From NCBI RefSeq assembly GCF_006861775.1, contig NZ_VDGG01000013.1:47153-90882 (forward strand): a stretch of 43,730 bases of DNA. The letters run 5' to 3'. Of this stretch, positions 19,382-35,712 are shown in pieces (position 1 is the stretch's first letter; each line of letters opens with the position of its first letter). The position numbers and the translations under genes were made by a program. This DNA is from Psychrobacillus soli (lineage in GTDB: Bacteria; Bacillota; Bacilli; Bacillales_A; Planococcaceae). The notes under the pieces were generated by a model. The model ran no database searches and was not told the DNA's origin. It saw only the letters and a list, made by a program, of their open reading frames with translations.

Positions 19382-19410
19382 ATTTTTGTGATTTTATGAG
19401 GAGGATAAAA

Positions 19411-20709
19411 ATGGAACTAGTTCTCAATCAAAGACAGGAACAAAGTTTAACGATGACTTTTCAATTAAGGCAAGCCATTGAATTATTACAATACTCCACT
19501 TATGATCTTTACGAATATATAAAGGAAAAAGAATTAGAAAACCCACTCATTGAACTAGAAGAACATTCAAAAGATATTTCATTTGAAGGAAAGTCCACTG
19601 GAAAAGCAACATCTGCTAGTTCCAATGATCAACTTATAGACTTTGTAAGAAGTCGGGAAATATGTATCAGGGAAAAGTTATTTAAAGAAGCCAAGTTGCT
19701 ATTTAAACTGAAAGAAGATCAGCAACTTCTTCATTATATTATTTATAATTTAGACGACAGTGGCTATTTTCGTTTACAAGATTATGACCATTATGAAGAG
19801 GCAGCTATCGAAAAAGGAATTCATCTTCTACAACAAATTGGACCTGTCGGAATTGGGGCCAGAAGTTTACGAGAATGCTTACTTTTACAAGTAACATATG
19901 AATTTCCAGAAGAAAAATTAGTCAAAATCTTAATCGAAAATCACTTAGATTTATTAGCAAATAGAAAATGGAACGAAATTGCTCGTTGTATGAAAATTTC
20001 AATGGTTGAAATAAAGGAACTAAATGATTTTATTCAAACACTTAACCCGAAACCATTTTTTGGTATTTCCGATGAATCTGTGGAGTATTTAAACCCAGAT
20101 ATCATCGTAGAATATAAAGAAGGTGATCTCTCTTATTATATAAATGACGGATACTTACCTGAAATTCATTTTAATAATGATTATGCGGGATTACTTAAAG
20201 AAAAGGATGAAACATCTAAATACATAAACAATCAGTATACACAGTATAAATGGTTGTTAAGTAGCATTGAGCAGCGACGTTCTACAATATTAAAAATAGT
20301 AAAAGTATTACTAGAAAAACAAAAGGACTTTTTCAAGGAAGGATTTTCAGCTCTTAAACCACTAACCTTAAAAGAAGTGGCCACTGAAATTGATATGCAT
20401 GAATCTACAGTAAGTCGAGCAACGATGCACAAAGTAATCCAAACACCACGAGGCTCATTTGATCTAAGGTTATTGTTTACATCAAAATTGGAAACGTCAG
20501 ACGGAAGTTCCATTTCTCAAACAGAAGTAAAAGAACTTTTAGCCAGTTTTATAAAAAGTGAAAACAAAACGAAACCTTTTTCCGATCAAAAAATAGCTGA
20601 TTATTTTAATACTGAAAAAGGAATTAACATTTCAAGACGAACGATAAGTAAGTATAGAGAAGAACTCAATATACCATCTTCTAGTTTGCGAAAAGAGATA
20701 AGTATTTAA
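19411..20709 (+). CDS. rpoN: RNA polymerase sigma-54 factor
   Basis: Sigma-54 (SigL in Bacillus) directs RNA polymerase to -24/-12 promoters and needs an AAA+ activator. The 432-residue protein has the Gln/Leu-rich activator-interaction region I (LNQRQEQSLTMTFQLRQAIELL), a core-binding region, a helix-turn-helix (LTLKEVATEIDMHESTVSRA) and the RpoN box SRRTISKYREEL near the C-terminus, which reads the -24 element. I place the start at the ATG at 19411, since AGGAGGA is 5 bases upstream and overlaps the more upstream ATG at 19396. It lies beside two sigma-54 activators and two operons with -24/-12 promoters in this window. Confidence 0.96.
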   Translation: MELVLNQRQEQSLTMTFQLRQAIELLQYSTYDLYEYIKEKELENPLIELEEHSKDISFEGKSTGKATSASSNDQLIDFVRSREICIREKLFKEAKLLFKLKEDQQLLHYIIYNLDDSGYFRLQDYDHYEEAAIEKGIHLLQQIGPVGIGARSLRECLLLQVTYEFPEEKLVKILIENHLDLLANRKWNEIARCMKISMVEIKELNDFIQTLNPKPFFGISDESVEYLNPDIIVEYKEGDLSYYINDGYLPEIHFNNDYAGLLKEKDETSKYINNQYTQYKWLLSSIEQRRSTILKIVKVLLEKQKDFFKEGFSALKPLTLKEVATEIDMHESTVSRATMHKVIQTPRGSFDLRLLFTSKLETSDGSSISQTEVKELLASFIKSENKTKPFSDQKIADYFNTEKGINISRRTISKYREELNIPSSSLRKEISI

Positions 20710-20720
20710 GTCTCATAAAG

Positions 20721-20752
20721 AAAGGACAACGGATTTTACTTCGTTGTCCTTT
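20721..20752. terminator. Bidirectional terminator between rpoN and hutH-like gene
   Basis: AAAGGACAACG pairs perfectly with CGTTGTCCTTT around a 10-base loop. T-rich tails on both strands serve the convergent rpoN and hut-like operons. Confidence 0.9.
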
Positions 20753-20785
20753 CTTTTCATTTGTGAACACTTTTTAAATTAGTGT

Positions 20786-22324
20786 TTATTTCAAATCGTC
20801 TGATCGTAAAATATATTGTGCCAGTTCCTCCATCTGATCCGAAATTGCTCGGTCACCTTCTAAAGGAGGGCATATTTTCCTTACTTTTTCCAAATAATCT
20901 CTCGTTGCTGGTGCCAATTGATTTTCAGCCTTTTCCAAGTAGATTGCTTGAGAAGCGCATATTAACTCAATCGCTATTACCCGTGCACTATTATGAATAA
21001 TTTCTCTTGCTTGGCGAGATCCAATCGTTCCCATACTAACATGGTCTTCTTGGTTTGCAGATGTAGGAATTGAGTCTACACTCGCTGGATGCGCAAGTAC
21101 TTTGTTCTCAGAAACAAGTGCAGCTGCTGCATATTGCGCTACCATTAAACCACATTCTAAGCCCGGGTCTACCGCTAAGAAAGGTGATAATCCACTTAAT
21201 TGTGGATTGACAAGTCTTTCCGTTCTACGTTCCGATATATTTGCCCATTCTGCTGCACCTACTTTCAAGAAATCCATTGCTAGAGCAATCGGTTGACCAT
21301 GGAAATGTCCACCAGAAATAATTTCCCCACTTTCTAAAATAATTGGGTTATCTGTCGCCGAGTTAATTTCAATTTTCAGTCTATCTTCAACATAATTAAA
21401 CGCTTGCCAAGAAGCTCCATGTACTTGTGGTATACAACGAATAGAATAGGCATCTTGCATTCGGATTTCTCCTTGGTGTGTAATCCGTTTACTTCCTTCC
21501 AACCAACCTCTCATTCTTGAAGCCACGAATTCCAATTCAGGATGCGGACGCACAGCCAATAGTTCGCTGTCAAAGGCTGAAATAATTCCTTGTAACGCTT
21601 CCATCGTTAAACACGCTGCCATATCAGCAGCTAAGCCAACACGCTCTGCTTCATTTAGCGACACTACCCCAACTGCTGACATTGCCTGTGTTCCGTTGAT
21701 CAAGGCAAGACCTTCTTTTGCTTCTAGTGAAACTGGAGTTAACCCAGCGCGTTTAAGTGCTTCGCCGCCAGAAAGTATCTCACCTTCGTACTCTGCTTTC
21801 CCTTCACCAATTAATACGATGGCAATATGTGATAAAGGTGCTAAATCACCACTCGCACCGACGGATCCTTTACATGGAACAACAGGATGAACTCCTTTAT
21901 TAATCATCTCTACTAATAATTGAAGTGTACCTTCTTTAATACCGGAGAATCCTTTCGCTAGTGCATTGGCACGAAGCACCATCATCGCCCTTACAACCGC
22001 TTTTGGTAAAGGATCACCAACCCCTACAGCATCAGCTCGAAGTAAGTTTAATTGCAACTTGGCAATGTCTTCTTTGTCAATCTCAATATCACTTAATTTT
22101 CCGAACCCAGTATTTACTCCGTAGATGACCTTGCCGTCTCTAAGTTGCTTTTCAATTCGTTCTCTACTTGCACGTACTCTTATTAAATCTGTTTCAGGTA
22201 CTACTACTTTTGCAGTTCCATAAACAACTTGTTCTATTTTATGTCTATCTAACGTATTCCCATCTAATTCTACCAAAGTGGTTACTCCCGGTCTTTCTAG
22301 CTCAATCGTTTTTTCATTTTTCAT
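20786..22324 (-). CDS. hutH: Histidine ammonia-lyase family enzyme with altered substrate-pocket residue
   Basis: HutH removes ammonia from histidine to give urocanate, using an MIO group made from Ala-Ser-Gly. The 512-residue protein has ASG at 157-159 in GSVGASGDLAPLSH, so the cofactor should form. Other pocket residues are kept: YGVNTGFG (Tyr 68), LINGTQ (Asn), QDAYSIR (Gln, Tyr, Arg), GGHFHG (Phe) and SANQEDH (Glu). The canonical NLxLSHAxGVG segment, whose His (P. putida His83) contacts the imidazole, reads NLLRADAVGVG (94-104): Ser-His is replaced by Ala-Asp. The substrate may therefore be a modified histidine. It is the last gene of the sigma-54-dependent hut-like operon and is followed by a strong terminator. 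Confidence 0.88.
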   Translation of the reverse strand: MKNEKTIELERPGVTTLVELDGNTLDRHKIEQVVYGTAKVVVPETDLIRVRASRERIEKQLRDGKVIYGVNTGFGKLSDIEIDKEDIAKLQLNLLRADAVGVGDPLPKAVVRAMMVLRANALAKGFSGIKEGTLQLLVEMINKGVHPVVPCKGSVGASGDLAPLSHIAIVLIGEGKAEYEGEILSGGEALKRAGLTPVSLEAKEGLALINGTQAMSAVGVVSLNEAERVGLAADMAACLTMEALQGIISAFDSELLAVRPHPELEFVASRMRGWLEGSKRITHQGEIRMQDAYSIRCIPQVHGASWQAFNYVEDRLKIEINSATDNPIILESGEIISGGHFHGQPIALAMDFLKVGAAEWANISERRTERLVNPQLSGLSPFLAVDPGLECGLMVAQYAAAALVSENKVLAHPASVDSIPTSANQEDHVSMGTIGSRQAREIIHNSARVIAIELICASQAIYLEKAENQLAPATRDYLEKVRKICPPLEGDRAISDQMEELAQYILRSDDLK

Positions 22325-22346
22325 CTATATTCACTCCTTCTAATCG

Positions 22347-23519
22347 TTAAGCTTGTTTATGAGTTTCATACCATTGTTCAATTAGCGCTACTGTAAGTTT
22401 GCCTGTGTTTATCAAATTTTCTATACTAATACATTCTCTAAACGAATGAATATTTTGGAAACCATTCCCTAATGTTAAACATGTCAAACCATTTTCATTC
22501 AATACATTTGTATCTGCTCCACCAAGAGTTTCTGTAAGGTACGGCTTTACATTTATATTGAGAGAAGCCGATTCAACGGTTTTTGTTAATACATGGTCTT
22601 TCGGAATATCAAATCCACTATATTTCTTTTCAATTCTTATATGAACGGTACCGCCATTATTCTCTGCGGCTTTTTGCATTGCTTCTTCCATATGTTTTAA
22701 CTGTAGTTCCAATTTTTCTTTTGAAAAGCTGCGAACTTCACCAGCTACTGTTACTGAACCAGGTATGATTGATGTTAACTCGCCACCTTCTAAAATCCCT
22801 ATATTTGCGAGTGTCTCTTCATCAATCGTGCCGAGTTTCATGTTCAACAATCCTTCTGCTGCAATAAGAAATGCACTATTCCCTTCTTCTGCATTCAACG
22901 CGATATGTGCTGCTTTTCCTTGAACTTCCATCCAAATTCGACTACTATAAGGGCCTTTTAATATTATTTGCCCTACATCTCCGCTACTATCAAAAATATA
23001 GCCTACTTTACTTTTTGCCTTACTGTAATCCATATACGTAGCTCCAATAAGGCCCGGCTGTTCGTTTACCGTTAATATTAGCTCAATCGGACCATGTGGA
23101 ACACCACTTTCAGTAATTGCACGAACACCTTCTAAATAAGCCGCCAAAGCTGCCCGGTCATCAGCTCCTAATATTGTCGTGCCATCGGAATAAATGACAC
23201 CATCTTTAATAACTGGCTGTAGTTTTTCAGTAGGTAATACCGTATCCATATGAGTGGAGAAAAATAATGGCGGTATCGATGAATCTGTCCCTTCTTTCCA
23301 TGCTATCAAATTACCAACTTCACCATTAAAGTTTTTATGTGCATTATCAAATTCAAGTGTAAAACCAAGTTCAGTTAAAGCCTTTACTAAATAATCAGCT
23401 ACCGGTTGTTCCTTCATACTCGGTCCATTTATTTTCGCGAGATCCAAAAATAGATTTAGTAAACGTTCCTCATTTACTTGTTCCACAGCAGTAGAAGTGG
23501 ACAATTGATTTTTTGACAT
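22347..23519 (-). CDS. M20-family metallohydrolase (peptidase T/YqjE-like) in hut-like operon
   Basis: The M20 family includes di- and tripeptidases and N-acyl or N-carbamoyl amino-acid hydrolases. The 390-residue protein has the metal motif STHMDTV (His 90, Asp 92), GADDRAA (Asp 120), DSSGDVG (Asp 177) and a late metal His (358, in NGFQNIHSF). The central pair, normally Glu-Glu (general base and metal ligand), reads NEQPG: Glu 153 is kept but the second residue is Gln 154. It sits between hutI-like and hutH-like genes where formiminoglutamase HutG would be expected; no HutG is in the operon. It could hydrolyse the N-substituted glutamate made by the HutI-like enzyme, or histidine-containing peptides. 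Function is inferred. Confidence 0.8.
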   Translation of the reverse strand: MSKNQLSTSTAVEQVNEERLLNLFLDLAKINGPSMKEQPVADYLVKALTELGFTLEFDNAHKNFNGEVGNLIAWKEGTDSSIPPLFFSTHMDTVLPTEKLQPVIKDGVIYSDGTTILGADDRAALAAYLEGVRAITESGVPHGPIELILTVNEQPGLIGATYMDYSKAKSKVGYIFDSSGDVGQIILKGPYSSRIWMEVQGKAAHIALNAEEGNSAFLIAAEGLLNMKLGTIDEETLANIGILEGGELTSIIPGSVTVAGEVRSFSKEKLELQLKHMEEAMQKAAENNGGTVHIRIEKKYSGFDIPKDHVLTKTVESASLNINVKPYLTETLGGADTNVLNENGLTCLTLGNGFQNIHSFRECISIENLINTGKLTVALIEQWYETHKQA

Positions 23520-23542
23520 TAGAATTCCTCCTATTTTTGATT

Positions 23543-24796
23543 TTACCTTCTAACTACAACTTTTCCATCTTTAATAACTGTTTCTACTATATTTGTCCCT
23601 AGTTCATATGCAACATGCTTATACGTGGGTATATCCCAAATCTGCAAATCTGCTAGTTTACCAGTTTGAATAACTCCACGATCATCTAAATTAAGGGCAC
23701 GGGCCCCACCGTATGTTGCCGCTTTAATCGCTTCTTCTACTGTGAATTTATACAATCGGCAAGCAAGATTAATAACAAACTGCATAGACTCCGTGTAACA
23801 TGCCGGACAAAGATCTGTTGCGAGTGCTATATTCATACCTAAGTCGAGCATTTTTCTTGCTTCAAAGGGTTGCTTATGTCCAACTGCAAAATCAAGTGCT
23901 GGCATTAATACACCAGTTACTTCCGACTTTGCTAGCTTCTCCATCACATCTTTAGGTGTAAAATTCAGATGATCTACTGAAACCATGTTCATCTCCACCG
24001 CTAGATCAGAACCACCAATATATGAATATGCATCCGCATGTAATTTCGGTTTCATACCATGTTGCAATCCTGCTTGTAAGATTTTCTTAGAGTCTTCTGC
24101 TGTAAAATATCCTTCATCACACCAAGCATCACAAAATTCCGCAAGTTTTAACTCACCAACTTTTGGAATCATTTCATTTATAATGATTTCTAAATACTCA
24201 TTTTTTGTCATACCTTCGGGGATACCATGGGCACCTAAAAATGTATTTAGAACATCCACTGGTGTTTCCTTATTAAGCCTTCTTCCTACTTCAAGGATTT
24301 TAATTTCACTTTCCGTCGTCAAACCATATCCACTTTTACTTTCGATAGTCGTGATTCCATAATCTAACATTGATAACATTCTTTTTTTGGCTTGTTGAAA
24401 TAATTCTTCTTCCGAAGCATGACGTGTTAGCTCAATCGTTCTGTTCGGACCAGTTGTAATTCCGAGTTCTTTTAAGTTTTCGGCAATATCCCCTGCTAGT
24501 TTTGCTGCATATTCTTCCACTCGTGATCCATTAAAAACAAGATGTGTATGACAATCGACAAACCCCGGTGCAACAACTTTTCCAGAAGCATTAATCTTAA
24601 CCGAATTGTCTATGTCAAATTGGTTGTTTATCTCTTCTTCAGATCCAACCCCCACAATTTTGTCTTTTTTAATAGCTATCCAAGCATTTTGAATAACTCC
24701 AATTTCTTGCATACTGTTTCCAGTGCAGGTAATTACTTCCGTTGCGCTACAAATGACTAAATCTACTTTTGTTTTAACTTTCGTTTCTGTGTTCAT
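23543..24796 (-). CDS. hutI: Imidazolonepropionase-like amidohydrolase
   Basis: HutI opens the imidazolone ring of imidazolonepropionate to give N-formimino-L-glutamate. The 417-residue protein keeps the metal ligands of the family: DCHTH (His 83, His 85), LHAD (His 253) and ATDL (Asp 328), and also FLGAH (His 190) and VDHL (His 276). It differs at functional positions: HADE, with a Glu proposed to be catalytic in B. subtilis HutI, reads HADA (Ala 256); the GGGI substrate loop is replaced by ELGITTGPNRT (110-120); and TDFNPGSSP becomes TDLCPACYT. It is probably an imidazolonepropionase relative acting on a modified ring. It lies between the YjiH transporter and M20 genes. Confidence 0.85.
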   Translation of the reverse strand: MNTETKVKTKVDLVICSATEVITCTGNSMQEIGVIQNAWIAIKKDKIVGVGSEEEINNQFDIDNSVKINASGKVVAPGFVDCHTHLVFNGSRVEEYAAKLAGDIAENLKELGITTGPNRTIELTRHASEEELFQQAKKRMLSMLDYGITTIESKSGYGLTTESEIKILEVGRRLNKETPVDVLNTFLGAHGIPEGMTKNEYLEIIINEMIPKVGELKLAEFCDAWCDEGYFTAEDSKKILQAGLQHGMKPKLHADAYSYIGGSDLAVEMNMVSVDHLNFTPKDVMEKLAKSEVTGVLMPALDFAVGHKQPFEARKMLDLGMNIALATDLCPACYTESMQFVINLACRLYKFTVEEAIKAATYGGARALNLDDRGVIQTGKLADLQIWDIPTYKHVAYELGTNIVETVIKDGKVVVRR

Positions 24797-24855
24797 TCAA
24801 ATACCTCCATAAAAAATATTCAGTGACCTATTTGATCAACAGTGCGTATTAACTC

Positions 24856-26205
24856 TCAAAGGAACAAAAATGTAAGTGGTGTAACGATAATTAGTGTCAA
24901 CACCGTTCTTATAAACCAGATTGTCAGTATATGACTCATTTTGATCGGTATTTCCGTAGAAAGAATGCAAGGTATCAACGCTGAAAAGAAGAGTATGGTT
25001 GAAATAGATAGAGAGCCAATAATGAATCTAGTTTCTAAACTTGCTTGCAACACTACTAGCGACGGTAAGAACATATCTATCAAGTTAATAGCCGCAGCTT
25101 TTGCCGCGAGAAATGGTTCCGGAATTTGAAGTACCCATGTTAATGGATAAAAAATATAACCAAGATAATCAAATACTGGTGTCTGATTGGCCAAGATTAA
25201 ACCTAATAACCCAATGGACATAATGGATGGTAAAATACCCATGGCCATCACTAATCCATCTTTAACGTTTACAAATATATTTTCTTTCAACTTTGGTGCA
25301 TTATGAGCCGTAGTCATAGCTTGCTCCCACGCATGCCTTATACGATTTTCCTTAATAATTTCTTCCGGAAATCCTTCTTCAGTATAATAATCATCACTTA
25401 TTTTATTAATCGGCCAGATCCTCACAGTAATAGCTGTCACGACAAAGGTAACTAAAAAAGTAAGCCAAAAATACAAATTCCAAATATGCATTATATCCAG
25501 AGTCTTAGCTACGACAATCATAAATGTCGCTGACACAGTAGAAAATCCTGTTGCAATGATGATTGCTTCTCTTTTCGTATACTTTCCTTCTTTATAAATC
25601 CGGTTTGTGATTAATAAACCTATCGAATAACTACCTACAAAAGAGGCAACTGCATCAATAGCCGATCTTCCTGGAGTTCGCCAAACTGGCCGCATAATCG
25701 GTTGCATGAAAATACCGATAAATTCAAGTAACCCATATCCGACAAGCATTGCTAGAAAAATCGCTCCAATTGGAACTAGAACCCCAATAGGAATAAGTAA
25801 ACTATAGTACCAATAAGGTCCCATATCCTCTGCCATTAACCATGCTGGACCGATTTCAAACAGTACTAAAAATGCTGCAATGGCACCCAATACTTTGAAA
25901 CCAGATAGCACCATCTCAACTTTACTTTTTCGCCAAGTTTTTGTGTAAAATGGGTAAACCGCTCCTAATAGGACAAGAATCATCGCATAGTATGCACTCG
26001 CAGTACTCGACAATGATCGAAGCCACGTAACTAGATGATCTAATGGAATAGAACTTTTGTCGTTTAATTCAATAGGAATAAAAAACATAAAGATACCAAT
26101 TGCACTGAAAAAGAAAAATCTGAAAATATTTCGAAACTGGTAAATACTTCTATCTTCTCTAGCGGCTATTGGAGAATTATCAATTGTATCTTGAAGATTA
26201 TTCAT
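24856..26205 (-). CDS. YjiH family transporter (nucleoside-recognition/Gate domain)
   Basis: The 449-residue protein has about ten to eleven membrane segments. RFFFFSAIGIFMFFIPIELN near residues 29-48 and a conserved block (GRSAIDAVASFVGSYSIGLLITNRIYKEGKYTKREA, about 178-215) are typical of YjiH-type Gate-domain proteins, whose substrate is not established. Its place inside the hut-like operon suggests it moves the pathway substrate or an intermediate such as a urocanate derivative across the membrane. It would be a second transporter besides the ABC importer encoded upstream. The gene starts at ATG and lies 59 bases before hutI-like. Confidence 0.82.
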   Translation of the reverse strand: MNNLQDTIDNSPIAAREDRSIYQFRNIFRFFFFSAIGIFMFFIPIELNDKSSIPLDHLVTWLRSLSSTASAYYAMILVLLGAVYPFYTKTWRKSKVEMVLSGFKVLGAIAAFLVLFEIGPAWLMAEDMGPYWYYSLLIPIGVLVPIGAIFLAMLVGYGLLEFIGIFMQPIMRPVWRTPGRSAIDAVASFVGSYSIGLLITNRIYKEGKYTKREAIIIATGFSTVSATFMIVVAKTLDIMHIWNLYFWLTFLVTFVVTAITVRIWPINKISDDYYTEEGFPEEIIKENRIRHAWEQAMTTAHNAPKLKENIFVNVKDGLVMAMGILPSIMSIGLLGLILANQTPVFDYLGYIFYPLTWVLQIPEPFLAAKAAAINLIDMFLPSLVVLQASLETRFIIGSLSISTILFFSALIPCILSTEIPIKMSHILTIWFIRTVLTLIIVTPLTFLFL

Positions 26206-26285
26206 ATTTTCACCCCATAGATTGTATTAGCTAATTTAGAAAGAGTGTACGCATTTCCTTGTTTTTGAATAGTTAAACTTAAAAT

Positions 26286-27008
26286 CTATAAAACCTTACT
26301 TAAAAAGGATTTTGTTCGATCATGTTGCGGGTTTTCAAAAAGTTGTTTTGGTTCATTTTCTTCCACAATGTAACCCCCGTCCATAAACAAAACACGATCA
26401 CCGACTTCTCGTGCAAAACCCATTTCATGAGTCACAACTACCATCGTCATTCCTTCAAGTGCTAATTGTTTCATAACTTCTAGTACTTCACCAACCATCT
26501 CTGGGTCAAGTGCTGAGGTTGGTTCATCAAAAAGCATAATTTTTGGCTCCATTGCAAGCGCTCTAGCAATTGCAACACGTTGCTTTTGTCCTCCTGATAA
26601 GGAATCTGGGTACGCATCTGCCTTCTCTTTCAATCCCACTTTTCGAAGAAGCTCTAAACCTTTTTCTCTAGCCTCTTCCGCAGATAACTTTCTTACTCTC
26701 ATTGGGGCAAGCATAATATTATCAATCACGGTTTTATGTGGAAATAAATTAAATTGCTGAAAAACCATGCCTACCTCGGTTCTTACTTTATTAATATCTG
26801 TTTTCTTATCTGTAATATCAACACCTTCAATCGTAACGTGACCTGCTGTAATGGATTCAAGTAAATTAAGACATCGTAAGAAAGTAGACTTTCCTGATCC
26901 AGAAGGGCCAATAACTACTACTACTTCTTTTGGATTTATGAATGCGTTAATGTCCTTTAATACTTCGTTACTCCCAAATGATTTTTTCAAATTTTTTACT
27001 TCTATCAT
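26286..27008 (-). CDS. Amino-acid ABC importer, ATP-binding subunit
   Basis: This 240-residue ATPase powers a polar amino-acid importer of the GlnQ/HisP type. It has Walker [10 protein letters not shown] (about 34-42), the Q-loop [12 protein letters not shown], the signature LSGGQKQR (about 136-143), Walker [14 protein letters not shown] and the switch His in VVTHEMGFA. Its start overlaps the permease stop by 4 bases (ATGA), so the two are translationally coupled. The place in the hut-like operon suggests it imports the amino acid that the operon degrades. Confidence 0.93.
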
Positions 27009-27661
27009 TCTGTCGCTAACCTTCTTTCAAGACGATTTAATAAGTAGCTTAAAGAGGTAGTTAACACTAAATAGATAAGTGCAGCTGTGAGATATGGTTC
27101 CCATACTCGGAAATACTGGCTTCCTAATGCCCGCCCATAATACATAAGTTCAGGAGCGGCCACGAGAGATGCCAGTGAAGATTCTTTTATAAGAACGATG
27201 AATTCGTTCCCAAGGGGAGGAATCATCCTTTTAAAGGCCTGAGGCAAAATAACATCTTTCATCGATTGAACATGATTCATACCTAAAGAACGGGCTGCTT
27301 CCATTTGTCCCTTATCAATGGACTGTATGCCAGCCCTAAAAATTTCTGATATATACGCACCAGCAATCAAGGAAAGTGCGATAATGCTTGCAAGTATCCC
27401 ATTTGTATTTCCAGTTAACAAGGGCACTACACCAAAATGAATTAATAGTAATTGCACGTATAGTGGGGTTCCACGAAAAAAAGTAATATAACAACTACAA
27501 AGAAACGCAATCGGCTTATTTCGCGTCATTTTCCCTAAACCAATTAATAATCCTAGTACTGTTCCAATCAAAATCCCAACCAATGATAACCCGATTGTTA
27601 GTAATGTCCCTTTTACAAAGAATGGAATATATTCTACTAAGATATCAAATCTAAAATCCAT
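27005..27661 (-). CDS. Amino-acid ABC importer, permease subunit
   Basis: The 218-residue protein has about five membrane helices and the HisM/GlnP-type EAA loop [20 protein letters not shown] (about 142-161) that docks on the ATPase. [10 protein letters not shown] near 68-77 is also characteristic of polar amino-acid permeases. It follows the solute-binding protein gene after a perfect 10-bp hairpin and overlaps the ATPase gene. It probably forms a homodimer, as no second permease gene is present. The ATG has a GGGGGG-rich ribosome binding site. Confidence 0.93.
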
Positions 27662-27688
27662 TGATTTCCCCCCTTATGTAAACCAAAA

Positions 27689-27718
27689 TTGCGTAACTAC
27701 TTATTAGGAGTTACGCAA
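27689..27718 (-). other. Intercistronic hairpin after the solute-binding protein gene
   Basis: TTGCGTAACT (27689-27698) pairs perfectly with AGTTACGCAA (27709-27718). It has no proper T-run. Hairpins at this place are common after binding-protein genes and stabilise the upstream mRNA, giving more binding protein than permease. Confidence 0.6.
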
Positions 27719-27732
27719 CTTGATTTATTCAC

Positions 27733-28548
27733 TTACTCCTGTTCTGCTAGTATCGTTTCTACATCAGGTTCAGCACCAAACCACTCTTCGTAAATTTTTG
27801 CATAAGTACCATTTTTCAGTACTTCAGTAACAGCTACATCAAAATCCGCTTTAAGAGCGCTACCTTTTGGAAACATTAGCCCATAAAATTCTTTTTCAAA
27901 ACCTTCTTCATCTTTAATTATGGATAATTTTTTATCGGGATTGTTTTTTGCATATTCTTGAACAACTGCATTGTCGGCTACAACAGCATCTGCTCCGCCA
28001 CTCAACATCTCCAAAATAGCTAGATTATTATTATCGAATTTCTTAATATCTTTATGGTTTTTGCCAAGAATACCCTCAACCGCTTCCTGACCTGTAGTAC
28101 CACCTAGTACTGCTACAACTTTGCCCTTTAAATCAGCAGCACTTTTAATATCACTACCTTCTGGTACCAAAATTTCATTTGTTGATAAATAGTATGGAAC
28201 TGAAAAATCATACGTCTGTTTACGTTCGTCATTTATCGTAATTGCACATATACCTAAATCTGAAAGCTTATCTTTCACTTCGACAAATAATGGATCCCAT
28301 CCAACATGTACAAGTTCAATTTCGTAACCCGCTTCTGCTGCAACCGCATTCATAAAGTCGACATCAAAACCTTTCATTTTCCCTTGATCTAAGTAAACAA
28401 ATGGTGCATAGTTTGCTTCTGTCGCGATTTTTAGTTTTTTCTTTTCGTTATTTGCTCCATCGGCTTCAACGCTAGTACCATCTGAACCACAGGCTGCTAG
28501 GATTAGAGAGAAGATCATGACAATGATTAGAAGAGAAAACTTTTTCAT
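27733..28548 (-). CDS. Amino-acid ABC importer, solute-binding lipoprotein
   Basis: The 271-residue protein has a lipoprotein signal peptide with lipobox LAAC (Cys 20) and a type II periplasmic-binding fold (about 36-265). Residues that hold the alpha-carboxylate and alpha-amino groups of amino acids are visible: Arg 109 in INDERKQTYDFSVPY and an Asp in VVADNAVV (192). The ligand is therefore probably an alpha-amino acid; side-chain preference cannot be read. It follows hutU-like but a strong terminator lies between, so it may need read-through or a second promoter; a TATGAT box lies upstream. It is tethered to the outer face of the membrane. Confidence 0.92.
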   Translation of the reverse strand: MKKFSLLIIVMIFSLILAACGSDGTSVEADGANNEKKKLKIATEANYAPFVYLDQGKMKGFDVDFMNAVAAEAGYEIELVHVGWDPLFVEVKDKLSDLGICAITINDERKQTYDFSVPYYLSTNEILVPEGSDIKSAADLKGKVVAVLGGTTGQEAVEGILGKNHKDIKKFDNNNLAILEMLSGGADAVVADNAVVQEYAKNNPDKKLSIIKDEEGFEKEFYGLMFPKGSALKADFDVAVTEVLKNGTYAKIYEEWFGAEPDVETILAEQE

Positions 28549-28603
28549 TCAATTGTCCCCTTATATTTAATAGTTTTCGATCATCATACTGTTTGTGAGC
28601 CAT

Positions 28604-28646
28604 TAAAAAAGGTAGAGAAAATAATATCTGCATGTTCTCTACCTTT
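28604..28646 (-). terminator. Terminator between hutU-like and importer genes
   Basis: AAAGGTAGAGAA (28608-28619) pairs perfectly with TTCTCTACCTTT (28635-28646), followed by T residues on the minus strand. It lies 14 bases after the hutU-like stop, inside what is otherwise a continuous operon. It would lower transcription of the genes that follow unless these have their own promoter. Confidence 0.85.
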
Positions 28647-28659
28647 CCATTTTACCTAC

Positions 28660-30378
28660 TTACGCATTGACTTCTTTCTTCACGTCTTTTGGTCCAAATG
28701 TCGCTTCTGGTTTCCACCATAATGGAATTTTAATACTTTCATTCGTTAATTTCCCTTTACCGTTCGCAACATCTTGTGCAGTTTCGTACCCCGCTTGCGC
28801 ATGACGTACAACCCCAATTCCAGAATCTACTGTCATTGCTACTTCAAGTCTCATATCAGATTCAGCTGTACCATCTGCCACCATCGTCACACCTGTGTGT
28901 ACTGCTTCTCCCATTGAATAGTTTGCTTGAATAGCGATTAAATCACACATACCAACTGCGTTTAGAAGACCATTCAACATTGGCCAATCAGAGATTAAGT
29001 CACTACCATCTTTCATATTCTCTGATTCAAATGTTGGGTTTACGATTGATCCAGAGTCCAAGTTGTCACGAGAGAATGCAACCGGTCCAGATAGTTCTCC
29101 ACGGCGAATCATGTCATTTACTTCTAGTGCAAATGCTTTACGTTGGCCGAATCCCATATAACAAATACGTGCAGGTAATGCTTCAATTGGAATATGCTTT
29201 TTCGCTAATTTGATCCAGCGTGTAACGAGTTTATCATCGCTAAATTTTTCTAAAATCATATCGTCAATTTTACGTAAATCTTCCGCATCTCCAGATAAGC
29301 AAACCCAACGGAACGGTCCGCGTCCTTCACAGAATAGTGGTCGGATATATTCTGCTACGAAACCAGGAAGACGTTTTGCTTCTTTTTCATCCATCCCTGC
29401 ATCAATACATTCTTTACGATGGCTTGTGCCGTACTCAAACGAATGAACACCTAAATCCATGAATTTGATTAATGCCTTTAATTCACGAACCATTGTTTCA
29501 CGCGCTTTTTCCAAGTACAATTCACGATTTGTATCACGAAGCTCTTCTGCTTCTTGCACTGTGTAACCCGCAGGTAAATATGAAATAGGGTCATGACCAG
29601 GTGTCATGGATGTGGAAATGTCAGGTAGCCACCCTTTTTCAAGCACTTCTTCATAAATGTCTGCAGCATTACCTACAACAGCAATACCAAGTGGTTTTCC
29701 AGCTGCCGCATATTCTTTTGCTTTTGCGATTGCTTCATCTAGCGAATTAGCTAACTCATCGATGAATCCTTTTTCAATACGACGTTGAATGATTTCGACA
29801 TTTGAGTCACAAAGAATTGCCACACCGCCGTGCATCGTCATCGCGCGTGTTTGGTTTCCGCCCATTCCCCCTGCACCCGCAGTTAAAAGGATCTTTCCAA
29901 CAAGCGAGTCATTATAATGCAAGCGTGCGATGGCAGAAAGGGTTTCAAAAGTACCTTGAATAACACCTTGCGTTCCAATGTACTCCCATGGAGCAGCAGT
30001 ATAGTTTGCATAAATAGTTAAGTTTTTATCTTGTAAATCATAGAACGTAGGCCAATCTGCTTTCATAATATTCGTTGTCGCCATTACTACTGTTGGCGCA
30101 TATTTATGGGTTTTAAAGATTGCAACTGGCATTCCAGATTGAACTACAAGTGTTTCATCATCCTCTAATTCTTTTAAAGATTTCACAATTGCGTGGTAAG
30201 ATTCCCAGTTACGAGCGGCTTTTCCGATACCACCGTAGATTACAAGCTCTTCCGGTTTCTCGGCATTTTCCATATTGTTCTCTAACATTCGTAAAATCGA
30301 TTCTTGTCTCCAACCTTTACAACGTAACTCTGGTCCTCTTTGTGCTTTTACGGAATATAAAATTTCTGGTGTTGTCAT
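28660..30378 (-). CDS. hutU: Urocanate hydratase family protein with altered active-site loop
   Basis: Urocanase adds water to urocanate with tightly bound NAD+. The 572-residue protein has the family layout: YGGIGKAARNW near 48-58, the dinucleotide motif GAGGMGGNQ (168-176), FVAEYIRPLFCEGRGPFRW near 340-358, and ARIC (Cys 406). It departs from the family in the C-terminal loop: the canonical HHGGGVGMGYS is replaced by a two-residue-shorter IQANYSMGEAV (483-493), and the canonical GGMGGAQPLA becomes GGMGGNQTRA. These changes suggest a urocanate analogue as substrate. It is the first gene after a perfect -24/-12 promoter (30427-30445). The ATG at 30378 gives a leader of about 39 bases. Confidence 0.88.
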   Translation of the reverse strand: MTTPEILYSVKAQRGPELRCKGWRQESILRMLENNMENAEKPEELVIYGGIGKAARNWESYHAIVKSLKELEDDETLVVQSGMPVAIFKTHKYAPTVVMATTNIMKADWPTFYDLQDKNLTIYANYTAAPWEYIGTQGVIQGTFETLSAIARLHYNDSLVGKILLTAGAGGMGGNQTRAMTMHGGVAILCDSNVEIIQRRIEKGFIDELANSLDEAIAKAKEYAAAGKPLGIAVVGNAADIYEEVLEKGWLPDISTSMTPGHDPISYLPAGYTVQEAEELRDTNRELYLEKARETMVRELKALIKFMDLGVHSFEYGTSHRKECIDAGMDEKEAKRLPGFVAEYIRPLFCEGRGPFRWVCLSGDAEDLRKIDDMILEKFSDDKLVTRWIKLAKKHIPIEALPARICYMGFGQRKAFALEVNDMIRRGELSGPVAFSRDNLDSGSIVNPTFESENMKDGSDLISDWPMLNGLLNAVGMCDLIAIQANYSMGEAVHTGVTMVADGTAESDMRLEVAMTVDSGIGVVRHAQAGYETAQDVANGKGKLTNESIKIPLWWKPEATFGPKDVKKEVNA

Positions 30379-30426: not shown

Positions 30427-30445
30427 TTGCAAGTGCCGTGCCAAA
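30427..30445 (-). promoter_or_regulatory. Sigma-54 (-24/-12) promoter of the hut-like operon
   Basis: On the minus strand TTTGGCACGGCACTTGCAA has the -24 GG (plus-strand CC at 30441-30442) and -12 GC (30429-30430) with the required 10 bases between, and agrees with TGGCACG-N4-TTGCA throughout. Transcription should start near 30417, 39 bases before hutU-like. The sigma-54 activator gene at 30730 is divergent. Confidence 0.93.
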
Positions 30446-30729: not shown

Positions 30730-32442
30730 TTGGCTGTTTCTTCACTTGGTTCGATTATAAGAAGTTTTGTAGATGGGGTCATTGCTTTAAACGAAAATTA
30801 TGAAATTCTGTGGCATGATTTAAAAGATGATATTCCTTTAGAAGTTTCAGTAGGCACTCAAATATCAGATATCATTGCCTGTGATAATAGATTATTGATC
30901 AATAACAAAACATTTCCCCTTGATATTAATGAGAGACATTTTTCGGTAGAAGTGAAAGTTTTTACGGAGGATCATTCTTATATTTTCCTATGCTTAAGAG
31001 ATTTGAGAACTGAAATGATGGATACGGCAGAAAGACTATATTGTTTGGAAAAAATAATCGATTCTCTCGATGAGGGAGTAATGATGAGTAATTCTGAAGG
31101 AGAAATTATTTTATATAATCAAGCGCAGGAAAAAATGGAAGGCTTAACTAGCAAGGATATTATAGGTAAACATTTATGGTCCGTCTACAATTACAATCCA
31201 CAGTATTCAGAGCACAGACATACGTTTAAAACAGGTAAACCAATTTACTCAAGGTATCGGGCCCATTCTACAGTAAACGGGATACCGAAATATGTGAACT
31301 ATAGTACATTTCCAATTCAAAAAGATGGTAAAACTATCTCTGTTTTTTCATTAAGTACCAATGAATCAAAACTAAAAGATCGGCTTCATCAAACAATCGA
31401 GCTAAGAAGGCAGTCAAATGTAACAACTCACGAAAAAGTCAACTCAAAGAACGGAACAATTTTTACCTTTAATGATATCAAGGGAAAAAGTTTGGCACTT
31501 TTAGAGCTCATTAAAGAGGCCCAAAATGTTGCCATACATAATGCGGACACATTAATTGTAGGGGAAACGGGTACAGGAAAAGAGCTATTCGCACAAAGTA
31601 TGCATAATCATAGTCCAAGAGCAAATAAACCATTCGTTGCAATCAACTGTGCTGCAATCCCGGAAAACTTATTGGAAAGTACATTGTTCGGCACTATCAA
31701 AGGCGCTTATACTGGAGCAACAGATCAAATTGGGCTATTCGAGTACGCTCAAGATGGCACCTTGTTCTTGGATGAAATTAACTCCATGCCTATGACATTG
31801 CAGTCAAAACTAATGAGAATATTACAGGAGCGATTCGTACGAAGAGTAGGTTCTAATGAAGTATCTCCTGTAAAGTGTACAGTCATTAGCGCTTGTAACG
31901 AAGATCCAGAAAAACTTATTGCCGAAAATAAAATGCGACTCGACTTGTTTTATCGGATTGCTCACACTAGTCTTTATATCCCACCTCTAAGGGAACGGAC
32001 AGAAGATGTACATTTTTTTATTAACTACTTCCTCATGACTTATCAAACAAAGTTATCCAAAGAAGTTCCACAGCTTTCAGAGACGTTGCAAAAAAGTTTG
32101 CTCAAATATCCTTGGCCCGGCAATATACGTGAACTAGAACATTTAATCGAAAACCTCATTATCCGTGTACCAGAAAATGCAGAAGCTATTAATATGGAGC
32201 ATTTACCATCCTATATGCGCGGTAAAATAATTACAGTGTTTCAAACAACTACATCCGAACAAGGAAACGTAATGCAAAGACCCCTTAAGAAAATCTTCAA
32301 TAACACAGAAAAACAGTTAATAGAAACAACCTTGAAACTTACAAACTGGAATGTTTCACAAGCCGCCCAAAAATTAGGCATCACTCGACAAAGTCTGCAA
32401 TATCATATAAAAAAACATGCCATTGAAAAACCTATAATTTAA
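30730..32442 (+). CDS. Sigma-54-dependent activator, RocR-like
   Basis: The 570-residue enhancer-binding protein has an N-terminal PAS-type sensor region (about 1-210, with LDEGVMMSNSEGEIILYNQA), an AAA+ domain with Walker A GETGTGKE (278-285), the sigma-54 contact loop GAYTGA (325-330), Walker B GTLFLDEI (343-350) and arginine-finger region, and a Fis-type helix-turn-helix at the end (about 540-562, NVSQAAQKLGITRQSLQYHI). The sensor and AAA+ parts resemble B. subtilis RocR, the activator of arginine catabolism. The start is TTG with AAAGGGG upstream. It is divergent from the hut-like operon and is its likely activator, sensing the substrate or an intermediate (inference). Confidence 0.92.
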   Translation: MAVSSLGSIIRSFVDGVIALNENYEILWHDLKDDIPLEVSVGTQISDIIACDNRLLINNKTFPLDINERHFSVEVKVFTEDHSYIFLCLRDLRTEMMDTAERLYCLEKIIDSLDEGVMMSNSEGEIILYNQAQEKMEGLTSKDIIGKHLWSVYNYNPQYSEHRHTFKTGKPIYSRYRAHSTVNGIPKYVNYSTFPIQKDGKTISVFSLSTNESKLKDRLHQTIELRRQSNVTTHEKVNSKNGTIFTFNDIKGKSLALLELIKEAQNVAIHNADTLIVGETGTGKELFAQSMHNHSPRANKPFVAINCAAIPENLLESTLFGTIKGAYTGATDQIGLFEYAQDGTLFLDEINSMPMTLQSKLMRILQERFVRRVGSNEVSPVKCTVISACNEDPEKLIAENKMRLDLFYRIAHTSLYIPPLRERTEDVHFFINYFLMTYQTKLSKEVPQLSETLQKSLLKYPWPGNIRELEHLIENLIIRVPENAEAINMEHLPSYMRGKIITVFQTTTSEQGNVMQRPLKKIFNNTEKQLIETTLKLTNWNVSQAAQKLGITRQSLQYHIKKHAIEKPII

Positions 32443-32526: not shown

Positions 32527-32829
32527 TCAATCTAGTTCTAGTTCCAACAAAGCAAAGCTTAACGACTTCCCGTGCGTATCCAGCGTCAAGGAAGTCGTTA
32601 CGCCTGTTGCCAAAGCTTGCGAACAGACAAACTGCAGCGCTTGAATGTTCTGAACGTCATATCGTTTTACTTCTCCTTCTACAATGCCTTTTAAATGATG
32701 CTTTACCACTTCTACAGTCAATCTCTCTTTTAATAATTCATAATCAGATGCTTCATAAGGTATAACGGACAACGTAATAGTATTTCCTTTATCCCCGGTT
32801 CGACAGTGCGCAATATCATAAAGTTTCAT
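32527..32829 (-). CDS. AtuA-like C-terminal (ferredoxin-fold) domain protein
   Basis: The 100-residue protein starts MKLYDIAHCRTGDKGNT and matches the C-terminal domain of full-length AtuA proteins, which in many bacteria is fused to the larger DUF1446 part. Here it is a separate gene whose ATG lies inside the end of the upstream gene: the frames overlap by 14 bases (32816-32829) in different registers, which implies translational coupling and equal amounts of both products. The HCRTGDKGN motif is well kept in the family; its function is unknown. It is the last gene of the operon. Confidence 0.8.
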   Translation of the reverse strand: MKLYDIAHCRTGDKGNTITLSVIPYEASDYELLKERLTVEVVKHHLKGIVEGEVKRYDVQNIQALQFVCSQALATGVTTSLTLDTHGKSLSFALLELELD

Positions 32830-34144
32830 TTGCTACATACTCCTTTAGTTCCGTGTGAAATTGAACGCAATCGCGATCAATAAAGGTGGAAACTACACCG
32901 ATTACTTCATTTACCACTTTTCTCGCACCGCCGCCACCTGCTGGGCCATTTGTATAAAGCGCTTCTACTTCTTCCCCTATTATCGCTGCTTCTGTACTAG
33001 ATTTCGCCTTTCCTGCAACTCTTAAGCGTACTTCATAAGGTTCTATATCTCTAAAACTTTTCCGGTGACAAGCATTCACTCCAATTAGATCTACTCTAAA
33101 CTCGGCATAGAAATGACCGATTCTTTCTTGTATAATGTCGCCCGCAAGTCTTGCTCTTTCACTTGCATTCGGACCTGCATAAGAGATTTCCCCTTCTCCA
33201 ATGAATCCTGCCTCATAGCCGATACTTACTTTTAACTTATGAGGCTTTGGAAGTCCTACTGCTCCATCTACTTTTATCCGCCCATCGGACAATTCTTCGA
33301 ACGTCACTGAAGTGAAATCCGCAATGATATCTGGTGTAATATATTCGTTTGGATTAATAACTTCATACAATAATTGTTCTTTTGCTGTACGGAGCGTAAT
33401 TTTTCCTCCCGTGTTCGCTACTTTACTGAAAGTCGCAGAACCGTCAGCTAATATATCTGCAAATGGAAAACCTAAATGTGCCATGTCCTTTATATCTTTT
33501 TTTCCAGGGTCTGCAAAATACCCCCCTGTTAATTGACCGGCACATTCTAATAAATGTCCAATCACCGTTCCTTTAGCCAATAAATCATCATTGTCTAATG
33601 ACCATTTAAATTCATGAATCATCGGTGCTAAAAATAAAGAAGGATCCGCAATTCGACCTGCAATAATAATTTGAGCATCCGATTGCAAAGCATCTAACAG
33701 AGCGTCTACTCCGATATAAGCATTTGCTGAAACGATTTGACCATGTGTTGATAAAGGTCCCCCTGTTTCCCAAGCCGTATCATCTGGAGAAACTTTCGTC
33801 AAAACGTCATCACCAGTTACAGCAGCAACTTTCATAGAAATATTAAGTTCTTTCGCGATTTCTAAAATTTTATTTGCGCCCGCTATAGGATTCGCCGCAC
33901 CCATATTAGTAATGATCCTTACTTTTTTTCCAACAATCTTTGGAATAAGTGATCTCATTCGCTTTTCCAATAAAAGATCATATCCAGCATGAGCATTTTG
34001 TTTTTTTCTCTTTTGAGCCAAAGCAATTGTTCTTTCTGCTAAGCATTCCAGTACCAAATAATCTAAATTTGCTTGTTCTACTAATATTTCCGCTGGCTCA
34101 ATACGGTCGCCCGCAAAACCAGCACCTGATCCAATTCGTATCAT
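32816..34144 (-). CDS. AtuA family (DUF1446) protein, N-terminal part
   Basis: AtuA is needed for acyclic terpene (citronellol/geraniol) use in Pseudomonas, but its reaction is unknown. The 442-residue product has the family start IRIGSGAGFAGDR, INMGAANP-like segment ITNMGAANPIAGANK (about 79-93), AGRIADPSLF and the Gly-rich end NGPAGGGGARKVV. I use the ATG at 34144 because GAGGTG is 6 bases upstream; an in-frame GTG at 34153 is part of that ribosome binding site. It starts 10 bases after the CitMHS gene. There are no terpene-pathway carboxylase genes nearby, so a role in carboxylate catabolism with the CitMHS transporter is more likely than terpene use (inference). Confidence 0.85.
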   Translation of the reverse strand: MIRIGSGAGFAGDRIEPAEILVEQANLDYLVLECLAERTIALAQKRKKQNAHAGYDLLLEKRMRSLIPKIVGKKVRIITNMGAANPIAGANKILEIAKELNISMKVAAVTGDDVLTKVSPDDTAWETGGPLSTHGQIVSANAYIGVDALLDALQSDAQIIIAGRIADPSLFLAPMIHEFKWSLDNDDLLAKGTVIGHLLECAGQLTGGYFADPGKKDIKDMAHLGFPFADILADGSATFSKVANTGGKITLRTAKEQLLYEVINPNEYITPDIIADFTSVTFEELSDGRIKVDGAVGLPKPHKLKVSIGYEAGFIGEGEISYAGPNASERARLAGDIIQERIGHFYAEFRVDLIGVNACHRKSFRDIEPYEVRLRVAGKAKSSTEAAIIGEEVEALYTNGPAGGGGARKVVNEVIGVVSTFIDRDCVQFHTELKEYVANETL

Positions 34145-34154
34145 CTCATTCACC

Positions 34155-35450
34155 TCAAATTGAAATTGCGCCTGTTAATAATGCAACAACTGTCATGACA
34201 ATCGTTGTACCAAACGCCCATTTAAATATAAATTTCTGATGCTCAAATAAGTCAACCTTCGTCAAACCAATTAAAATAAATGTTGCCGCTGTTAATGGAC
34301 TTAATGGGAAACCAACCGTCATTTGACCGAGAATAGCCGCTCGTCCAATTTCATGCGGGTTAATCCCTAAAGTCGAAGCTGTTTCACTAATAATTGGTAA
34401 CACACCAAAATAGTATGCATCTGGTGTAAACACTAAGCTTAAAGGCATACTTGTAATGGCTACAATAACAGGCAAATAATTTCCTAATGAGTCTGGTATT
34501 AAACGCACAAGTGCTGTTGCCATCTCACCAATCATGCCCGTTCCATTTAAAATTCCTGTAAAAATCCCAGCTGCAAAAATCATCGATGCAACTAATAATA
34601 CATTTCCTGCATGACTTAAAATACGAGCTTGCTGGTCCGCATTATTTGGGTAATTCATCATTAATGCAACAATAAAGCCAACGATGAATACAACAGGCAT
34701 TGGAAGCCAAACAAATAGTAACGCGCATAGCATTAGTAATGTAAGTAATAAGTTAAAGTAAAATAGTTTAGGACGACGAATCTTTTTCGTTTCTTCATCT
34801 AATTCCAAATTAAAATCCAAATTTTCTATATTAATAATTCCTAAACGCTTTCGTTCTTTTCTTCCAATTAAATAACTTGCAAACAATACCCAAGCAATTC
34901 CTGCTATCATTGCTGGTATTACCGGATTAAAAATATCCACTGCTTCCGCATTTAAAGTGGTCATCGCGCGTGCAGTTGGTCCACCCCAAGGGATCATGTT
35001 CATAACCCCTGCTCCAAGCGCAACAACCCCCGCCAAAATAAGACGATTCATCCCCAACTTTTCATAAATAGGTAACATCGCAGTAATAGTAATCATAAAA
35101 GTTGCAGAGCCATTACCATCCAAATGGACAATCATTGCTAAAAAAACTGTACCCATTACTACTTTTAGCGGGTCACCTTTCACTATTTGAATAATTTTTT
35201 TAATCATTGGATCAAATAATCCAACGTCCATCATTAAACCAAAATACATAATTGCAAAAACTAACATGATTCCCGTTGGAGCTACTTGCGTTAACCCATC
35301 AAGCATTAATCCTCCAATTTCAGAACCAAACCCTCCAATTAAGCCAAAAATGATCGGAATAATAACTAAAGAAACGATGACGGATAGCTTTTTTGTAAAA
35401 ATAGCTAGTAAAAATACACCAATAGTTAGAAATCCTAATAAAGCCAACAT
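34155..35450 (-). CDS. CitMHS-family carboxylate transporter
   Basis: CitMHS proteins import metal-citrate complexes or related carboxylates with protons. The 431-residue protein begins MLALLGFLTIGVFLLAIFTKKLS, typical of the family, has eleven to twelve membrane helices, IVHLDGNGSATFMIT near 109-123, and PWGGPTARAMTTL near 151-163. The longest frame begins at 35513, but that point lies inside the -24/-12 promoter, so the start is the ATG at 35448-35450; AAGGGAG lies upstream. It is the first gene of the atuA-like operon. Citrate is not certain; the AtuA partner suggests another di- or tricarboxylate. Confidence 0.88.
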   Translation of the reverse strand: MLALLGFLTIGVFLLAIFTKKLSVIVSLVIIPIIFGLIGGFGSEIGGLMLDGLTQVAPTGIMLVFAIMYFGLMMDVGLFDPMIKKIIQIVKGDPLKVVMGTVFLAMIVHLDGNGSATFMITITAMLPIYEKLGMNRLILAGVVALGAGVMNMIPWGGPTARAMTTLNAEAVDIFNPVIPAMIAGIAWVLFASYLIGRKERKRLGIINIENLDFNLELDEETKKIRRPKLFYFNLLLTLLMLCALLFVWLPMPVVFIVGFIVALMMNYPNNADQQARILSHAGNVLLVASMIFAAGIFTGILNGTGMIGEMATALVRLIPDSLGNYLPVIVAITSMPLSLVFTPDAYYFGVLPIISETASTLGINPHEIGRAAILGQMTVGFPLSPLTAATFILIGLTKVDLFEHQKFIFKWAFGTTIVMTVVALLTGAISI

Positions 35451-35500
35451 ATATTTTATCACTCCCTTGTTATTGCACCCCATCGTGCATTCAAAGTAAT

Positions 35501-35519
35501 ATGCAACTTTCATGCCAAC
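35501..35519 (-). promoter_or_regulatory. Sigma-54 (-24/-12) promoter of the citMHS-atuA-like operon
   Basis: On the minus strand GTTGGCATGAAAGTTGCAT has -24 GG (plus-strand CC at 35515-35516), 10 bases, and -12 GC (35503-35504), fitting TGGCAYG-N4-TTGCA. Transcription should start near 35491, about 41 bases before the ATG chosen at 35450. The promoter rules out the longer transporter start at 35513. Confidence 0.9.
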
Positions 35520-35569
35520 TTAGAAACCCTTTCATATAAACAACTTTTCAATATTTCCTTACTAAAGGA

Positions 35570-35585
35570 TTCTAAATTTTTAGAA
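35570..35585. promoter_or_regulatory. Activator site 1, TTCTA-N6-TAGAA
   Basis: TTCTAAATTTTTAGAA is an inverted repeat; with flanking bases it is a perfect 8-2-8 palindrome (35569-35586). It lies 54 bases upstream of the -24 element of the citMHS promoter. The same repeat occurs at 35661 and 35690. Confidence 0.7.
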
Positions 35586-35615
35586 TAAATAAAATGAAAT
35601 TGTTCTTCTTCAATA

Positions 35616-35649
35616 GAAAAAGCGTGACTTCCCTAAGGAAATTACGCTT
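35616..35649 (-). terminator. Terminator after the second sigma-54 activator gene
   Basis: AAGCGT (35620-35625) pairs with ACGCTT (35644-35649), extended by TTCC/GGAA inside, and a T-run follows on the minus strand. It separates the activator gene from the citMHS operon. Confidence 0.7.
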
Positions 35650-35660
35650 ATTAAAGGGTT

Positions 35661-35676
35661 TTCTAAATTAGTAGAA
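35661..35676. promoter_or_regulatory. Activator site 2, TTCTA-N6-TAGAA
   Basis: TTCTAAATTAGTAGAA repeats the arms of site 1 with the same 6-base spacer. It lies about 145 bases upstream of the citMHS -24 element, just after the activator gene. Confidence 0.65.
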
Positions 35677-35689
35677 TGGATTAGATATA

Positions 35690-35705
35690 TTCTAATTTAT
35701 TAGAA
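35690..35705. promoter_or_regulatory. Activator site 3, TTCTA-N6-TAGAA
   Basis: TTCTAATTTATTAGAA is the third copy, 29 bases from site 2 (centre to centre), between it and the activator stop codon. Three equal arms and spacers strongly suggest binding sites for a dimeric Fis-type regulator. Confidence 0.68.
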
Positions 35706-35712
35706 TGAAGTG

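Follow-up and report, generated by a model that had tools for sequence, protein, structure and literature searches.

An operon of eight genes in a 43,730-nucleotide stretch of the Psychrobacillus soli genome (contig NZ_VDGG01000013.1, positions 47,153 to 90,882; this whole stretch is called the window below) probably encodes all the steps of a second Hut-type pathway, one specialized for an N-methylated histidine, with N(tau)-methylhistidine as the most likely candidate. We base this reading on the gene content, the coexistence of an ordinary histidine utilization (hut) set in the same genome, residue changes that are fixed among relatives, the separate clades formed by the enzymes and a conserved promoter; from these we infer the reactions, the substrate and the inducer. 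In animals, the breakdown of actin and myosin leaves N(tau)-methylhistidine as a stable end product, and the bacterial degradation of this compound therefore bears on turnover in soil and gut. The operon offers a compact and testable case of a whole catabolic pathway that would have been duplicated and re-specialized as a set, each Hut enzyme being changed and the last one replaced.

The variant enzymes and their ordinary counterparts

An earlier note, made from the letters alone, had described a Hut-like operon at positions 20786-30378. All eight open reading frames (ORFs) are indeed found there on the minus strand, with family matches that fit the description. They are transcribed in the order HutU, three genes of an ATP-binding cassette (ABC) importer, a membrane protein with a Gate domain which we presume to be YjiH-like, HutI, an M20 hydrolase and HutH, and every frame is open. 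The HutU-like protein reaches 653 bits against TIGR01228 (cut-off 375), the HutI-like protein 385 bits against TIGR01224 (298), the HutH-like protein 654 bits against TIGR01225 (539) and the M20 enzyme 316 bits against the PepT-like family TIGR01883 (274).

Within these family matches, each of the four enzymes carries a change that was verified codon by codon in the window. HutH has Ala97-Asp98 at the place where the ordinary HutH of the same genome has Ser-His, a pair that we take to be its ring contact, and retains the ASG triad forming the methylidene-imidazolone (MIO) group. Among the ring-contact and catalytic positions of HutH (P. putida numbering), Ser82-His83 is the only changed pair, with Tyr68, Asn210, Gln290, Tyr293, Arg296, Phe341 and Glu426 all retained. 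In HutI the motif HADE has become HADA through Ala256, and H83, H85, H253, H276 and D328, presumably the HxH, His, His and Asp residues of the site, are all present. Residues 482-496 of HutU read AIQANYSMGEAVHTG; two residues are missing in comparison with the ordinary SVHHGGGVGMGYSIHAG, and the HHGGGVGMGYS loop is absent. The M20 enzyme has Glu153-Gln154 where an ordinary PepT-like paralogue encoded in the same genome has Glu-Glu. The catalytic roles assigned to the changed residues of HutH, HutI, HutU and M20 are those that we presume for these families. The motif changes named in the earlier note and the kept ASG were thus all confirmed. They recur in the recovered relatives, with AD in 35 HutH, HADA in 38 HutI, the short ANYSMGE loop in 42 HutU and EQ in all 29 M20 rows; since relatives share the same letters, neither chance nor a sequencing error can account for them. 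With all frames open and the changes fixed across relatives, decay of a hut operon was ruled out. The motifs AD, HADA, ANYSMGE and NEQ provide labels that separate these enzymes from ordinary Hut proteins, which NCBIfam scores alike.

The earlier note had also proposed a tree comparison with other members of the three Hut families, and this yielded separate clades for all three. In quick maximum-likelihood trees, calculated without bootstrap and carrying a long-branch warning, the HADA HutI (38 rows), the AD HutH (35) and the short-loop HutU (42) each make up one side of a branch, with values of 99, 100 and 100 in the Shimodaira-Hasegawa-like approximate likelihood ratio test (SH-aLRT). Variant HutU proteins are 72-99% identical to that of the window, compared with 44-51% for the HHGGGVG type and 46-49% for the HSGGGGY type. 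At columns that are 95% conserved within both the variant and the ordinary group, HutU differs at 100 of 374 (including 13 gap columns), HutH at 31 of 247 and HutI at 37 of 208 (including 3 gap columns), which makes HutU the most rebuilt enzyme. Solved structures of close homologues exist.

A search for a second, canonical hut operon, likewise proposed in the earlier note, revealed an ordinary hutU-hutI-hutH cluster on another P. soli contig and a hutG above cut-off on a third. Because these genes occur elsewhere in the genome, the window operon represents a paralogous pathway and not a decayed one. When genome contigs were scanned with the window HutI, 48 loci were recovered, 28 of them (L014-L041) from Bacillota; all were recruited by this protein and the neighbour counts hold for that set only. 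The closest relatives come from Psychrobacillus (HutI 89-96% identical). HutU, HutI, M20 and HutH occur together in 27 of the 28 Bacillota loci, the exception being L038, and a relative of the divergent activator lies within the stretch in 27 as well (it is missing from L026, cut by the end in L025 and only 46% identical in L038). All 27 Bacillota genomes behind these loci possess both an ordinary HutI (476-506 bits) and a variant one (366-396 bits), and 26 have at least two HutH above cut-off. Within the window's family, the variant HutI (at least 60% identity) was present in 16 of 200 sampled genomes, each of which also has the ordinary HutI; this sample overlaps with the 27-genome set and is not independent of it. 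Nine further family loci all contain HutI and M20, with HutU in eight and HutH in seven; one of them, L127, is of the monooxygenase type described below.

Some loci contain additional copies. Two variant HutU are found in each of L019, L021, L025, L028, L031 and L130, and HutH fragments 84-85% identical to the window HutH lie downstream of an intact variant HutH at L024:17614-18037, the remains of a duplicate. In Bacillus norwichensis (L175:6887-12668) and Siminovitchia terrae (L176:8193-13950), a family III CoA-transferase, checked against Pfam in L175 only, and an acyl-CoA dehydrogenase adjoin two HutU paralogues in tandem, which share about 64% and 54% identity with ordinary HutU.

Features of the window operon and its surroundings, and of related loci (coordinates without a locus prefix refer to the window)
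Feature	Position	Strand	Basis or remark
Variant urocanase HutU-like, proposed N-methylurocanate hydratase	28660..30378	-	TIGR01228 match; shortened loop at 28891-28935
Solute-binding lipoprotein of amino-acid ABC importer	27733..28548	-	ORF and family match
Permease of amino-acid ABC importer	27005..27661	-	ORF and family match
ATPase of amino-acid ABC importer	26286..27008	-	ORF and family match
YjiH-like membrane protein, probable second transporter	24856..26205	-	Pfam Gate
Variant imidazolonepropionase HutI-like	23543..24796	-	HADA at 253-256; Ala256 codon 24029-24031
M20 PepT-like hydrolase, proposed HutG replacement	22347..23519	-	Glu153-Gln154 at 23058-23063
Variant histidine ammonia-lyase HutH-like	20786..22324	-	Ala97-Asp98 at 22031-22036; MIO motif kept
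-24/-12 promoter TGGCACGGCACTTGCA	30428..30443	-	11/11 scored positions; begins 65 bases upstream of hutU ATG
Sigma-54 activator, divergent from hutU	30730..32442	+	PAS, AAA+, Fis helix-turn-helix
17-pair hairpin between convergent hutH and rpoN	20717..20756	.	pattern scan
rpoN (sigma-54)	19396..20709	+	sole match to sigma-54 DNA-binding domain found in genome
Inserted feeder genes, L027	5128-9870, 14123-16923		
Inserted feeder genes, L034	4820-9616, 14140-16980		
Sister operon, L038	4546-11239		activator divergent, sigma-54 type
Sister operon, L127	3201-9741		activator divergent, sigma-54 type

A model for the pathway and its control by sigma-54

In the proposed model, the methylated histidine would be taken up by the ABC importer, the YjiH-like protein or both. 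HutH would then remove ammonia by means of its MIO group to give N-methylurocanate, which the rebuilt HutU would hydrate to N-methylimidazolone propionate. Ring opening by HutI should produce N-(N'-methylformimidoyl)glutamate, and the M20 enzyme, acting in the place of HutG, would release glutamate and N-methylformamide. Expression would depend on the divergent PAS/AAA+ activator, which would switch on the sigma-54 promoter, presumably in response to the substrate.

The sigma-54 control put forward in the earlier note has a real -24/-12 promoter as its sequence counterpart, and this element is conserved. All 40 readable Bacillota regions upstream of hutU have a site matching at least 9 of the 11 scored positions, 29 of them perfectly, compared with 63 of 8000 two-base-block shuffles reaching at least 9/11, with no perfect match among the shuffles; another two upstream regions were of insufficient length for this reading. 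By sequence, a -24/-12 promoter, an AAA+ activator and an rpoN gene in the genome are thus all present. The neighbouring rpoN is needed by the hutU promoter and is not necessarily a member of the operon. The hairpin between hutH and rpoN is likely their shared terminator, going by a pattern scan which gave nine such sites in comparison with 6.1 in shuffles. A perfect palindrome, AGAATCATTGATTCT, is present upstream of the window hutU; the same scan did not recover it in relatives and a shared activator-binding palindrome was dropped. One Synergistaceae genome (L143/L173; region L173:273-4030) also has a window-type HutU, 73% identical and with the same short loop, next to a cyclodeaminase-domain gene and a Na+/H+-antiporter-family gene; upstream of this gene, which is outside the 40, no -24/-12 site was found, the best match being 7/11. 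Beyond the activator, the window contains a second module at 32816-37050, composed of an AtuA-family gene, a CitMHS-type transporter and an AAA+ activator of the sigma-54 type. A -24/-12-like site (35502-35517, 10/11) overlaps the listed start of the CitMHS-type transporter ORF.

Transporters vary among the loci while the enzymes stay. The 28 Bacillota loci contain a YjiH-like protein in 16 cases, an ABC binding protein in 11, a Na+/H+-antiporter-family protein in 13, an amino-acid permease in four and an SSF symporter in three. An acyl-amidohydrolase gene occurs in 9 of 37 Bacillota loci (two of the 28 and seven of the nine further ones); the protein of L025 exceeds the TIGR01891 cut-off and in L125 the gene lies beyond the activator. 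Such an enzyme would fit a supply of the amino acid in N-acylated form. Two Neobacillus species, N. novalis (L027) and N. niacini (L034), have four genes inserted between HutU and HutI, encoding an aminotransferase, a D-2-hydroxyacid dehydrogenase, an SSF symporter and an Ldh_2 dehydrogenase, and behind HutH they have genes for an acyl-CoA dehydrogenase and a CoA-transferase. The aminotransferase and hydroxyacid dehydrogenase of L017 are located after HutH. Through these feeder genes, the corresponding imidazole lactates and imidazole propionate would be able to enter the pathway.

Monooxygenase sister operons

The operons of L038 and L127 comprise an activator, an SSF symporter, an HpaC-type flavin reductase, an HpaB-type monooxygenase, an FAD synthetase, an M20 enzyme with EQ and a HutI with HADA; HutU and HutH are absent from both. 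L038 comes from B. norwichensis, where it shares a contig with the window-type locus L039, and L127 belongs to the window's family. Their first genes are preceded by -24/-12 sites of 10/11 and 9/11, respectively. Since M20 stays beside HutI in these operons in the absence of HutH and HutU, it most likely acts after HutI. For the same reason, and with a separate acyl-amidohydrolase present in some of the loci (9/37), it was judged less likely that M20 opens the pathway as a dipeptidase or deacylase. If the ring of an imidazole acid were hydroxylated directly, the product would be an imidazolone, the type of substrate opened by HutI. Tentatively, HutI and M20 could therefore be regarded as a portable lower module for methylated imidazolones that is reached by several routes, with the two-component flavin monooxygenase acting on methylimidazolepropionate or tele-methylimidazoleacetate and the Neobacillus feeder genes supplying methylimidazole lactates and propionate. 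Tele-methylimidazoleacetate is an end product of histamine. These sister operons constitute the most novel lead of the analysis, pointing to a route for methylated imidazole acids; a limited search of the open-licence literature found no description of such a monooxygenase route among the matches listed.

Of 261 genomes from the window's order, 5 encode an HpaB this close (E < 1e-100). Four of these proteins (L186-L189; 70-71% identical to that of L038) have other neighbours, with no HutI in the fetched stretch. They are accompanied by a flavin reductase and an FAD synthetase, and in L186 also by a RidA-type protein, DUF1028, an M20 hydrolase and a lyase of the fumarase/aspartase superfamily. 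Such clusters may serve to convert an imidazole-type acid to aspartate.

Which substrate, and how the pathway compares

Several observations weigh against a pathway for methylated histidine. All four enzymes still exceed the HutH, HutU, HutI and PepT-like cut-offs. One of the 27 Bacillota genomes (G218) has a single HutH, a variant one encoded on the contig of the variant HutI, and L125 is without HutH within the fetched stretch. Gln154 of M20 sits at what we take to be a metal-ligand position, and hydrolysis of an amidine by an M20 enzyme would be unusual. The tau and pi isomers of methylhistidine are not separable from sequence. Finally, enzymes of plain histidine degradation probably also include some in which the HutI Glu is lost or the HutH His is changed to Asp.

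This last point comes from the Synergistaceae, whose HutI is the nearest sister group of the window HutI in the tree (47-51% identity). Nine Synergistaceae genomes, mostly metagenome-assembled and possibly incomplete, have a single HutI over cut-off each, and all 10 HutI rows are of the HEGG type in contrast to the HADA of the window. One HutH over cut-off was found in seven of the nine genomes and none in two. Among the five HutH read beside HutI, the HutH of two genomes being outside this reading, four have Ser-Asp, sharing the Asp of the window enzyme, and one Ser-His. The urocanase loop is of ordinary length, a formiminotransferase gene is present in 8 of the 10 loci, and no relative of the window M20 was found in these 10 loci. 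From their gene sets the Synergistaceae look like plain histidine degraders, and an Asp in HutH or loss of the HutI Glu does not, for this reason, by itself indicate a changed ring. The earlier note had taken four parallel changes as an argument for a changed ring or side chain rather than decay; a paralogous pathway with a substrate other than plain histidine is supported, whereas the argument from the HutI change and the HutH Asp is weakened. What still sets the window family apart is the deletion in the HutU loop, the Ser-to-Ala change of HutH, the use of an M20 enzyme, a control system of its own and the presence of an ordinary hut set beside the variant one.

The enzymes might simply form a second set for plain histidine under nitrogen/sigma-54 control, which would agree with their scores above the ordinary cut-offs, with the Synergistaceae apparently using similar residues on histidine and with the lone HutH of G218. 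We consider this very unlikely, as an ordinary HutI is present in 27 of 27 genomes, HutU has been rebuilt to a greater extent than HutH and HutI, and M20 is kept with the variant set while the window genome has a separate HutG. A histidine with some other ring modification, such as 2-oxo, 2-thio or S-methylthio, is an improbable substrate. Chain 7ned and the class's best NF058531-scoring hydratases do have an altered loop as well, HSGGGGY, but the window HutU belongs to a different clade and scores 654 against the S-methylthiourocanate family NF058531 (cut-off 880) and 615 against the thiourocanate family NF058530 (cut-off 930); a thiourocanate or S-methylthiourocanate pathway does not fit these sub-cut-off scores and the clade, and was rejected. 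None of 250 genomes in the class sample exceeded the NF058531 cut-off, so the tree is without a certified member of that family. HutH also retains the MIO motif, which ergothionase is not known to use.

It is similarly doubtful that the same enzymes handle N(pi)-methylhistidine, derived from anserine, with N-methylglutamate and formamide as products. The changed residues could free space at either ring nitrogen, and the acyl-amidohydrolase of some loci could liberate the amino acid when it is N-acylated or bound in peptides; on the other hand, no gene for processing N-methylglutamate was recognized among the ORFs of the window operon, and the published title cited below names the tau isomer. 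N(tau)-methylhistidine thus remains our preferred substrate. Its bacterial degradation is the subject of Beliaeva, Atac and Seebeck (2022, ACS Chem. Biol. 17:1989), cited in PMC11591506 and PMC9960084. The earlier note had supposed that the chemistry would be partly known, which the existence of this title supports, and had regarded the gene set with sigma-54 control as possibly new. Among the open-licence matches listed, no account of methylurocanate or of a window-type pathway was found beyond the citing passages, and PMC12183590 was unrelated to the subject. The four-enzyme operon is carried by Siminovitchia terrae (L037, HutI 73% identical), which we take to be a former Bacillus. Beliaeva and colleagues reportedly described in 'Bacillus terra' a short Hut-like pathway acting on N-methylated intermediates and leading to glutamate and N-methylformamide. 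The window operon is possibly of exactly the published family. What appears to be new here is the context: the sigma-54 regulon, the swappable transporters, the feeder genes and the monooxygenase sister operons.

The window operon shares the first three enzyme families and, by inference, the order of the chemistry with the canonical Bacillus hutHUIG. It differs in that its enzymes belong to other clades with altered ring-contact residues, M20 replaces HutG, and it has its own importers and a sigma-54 activator. Catabolism of ergothioneine and S-methylergothioneine, which we take to be likewise Hut-derived and directed at a ring-modified histidine, provides the other comparison. The hydratases of that type have an altered HutU loop as does the window HutU, but the loop is a different one and they fall into a different clade.

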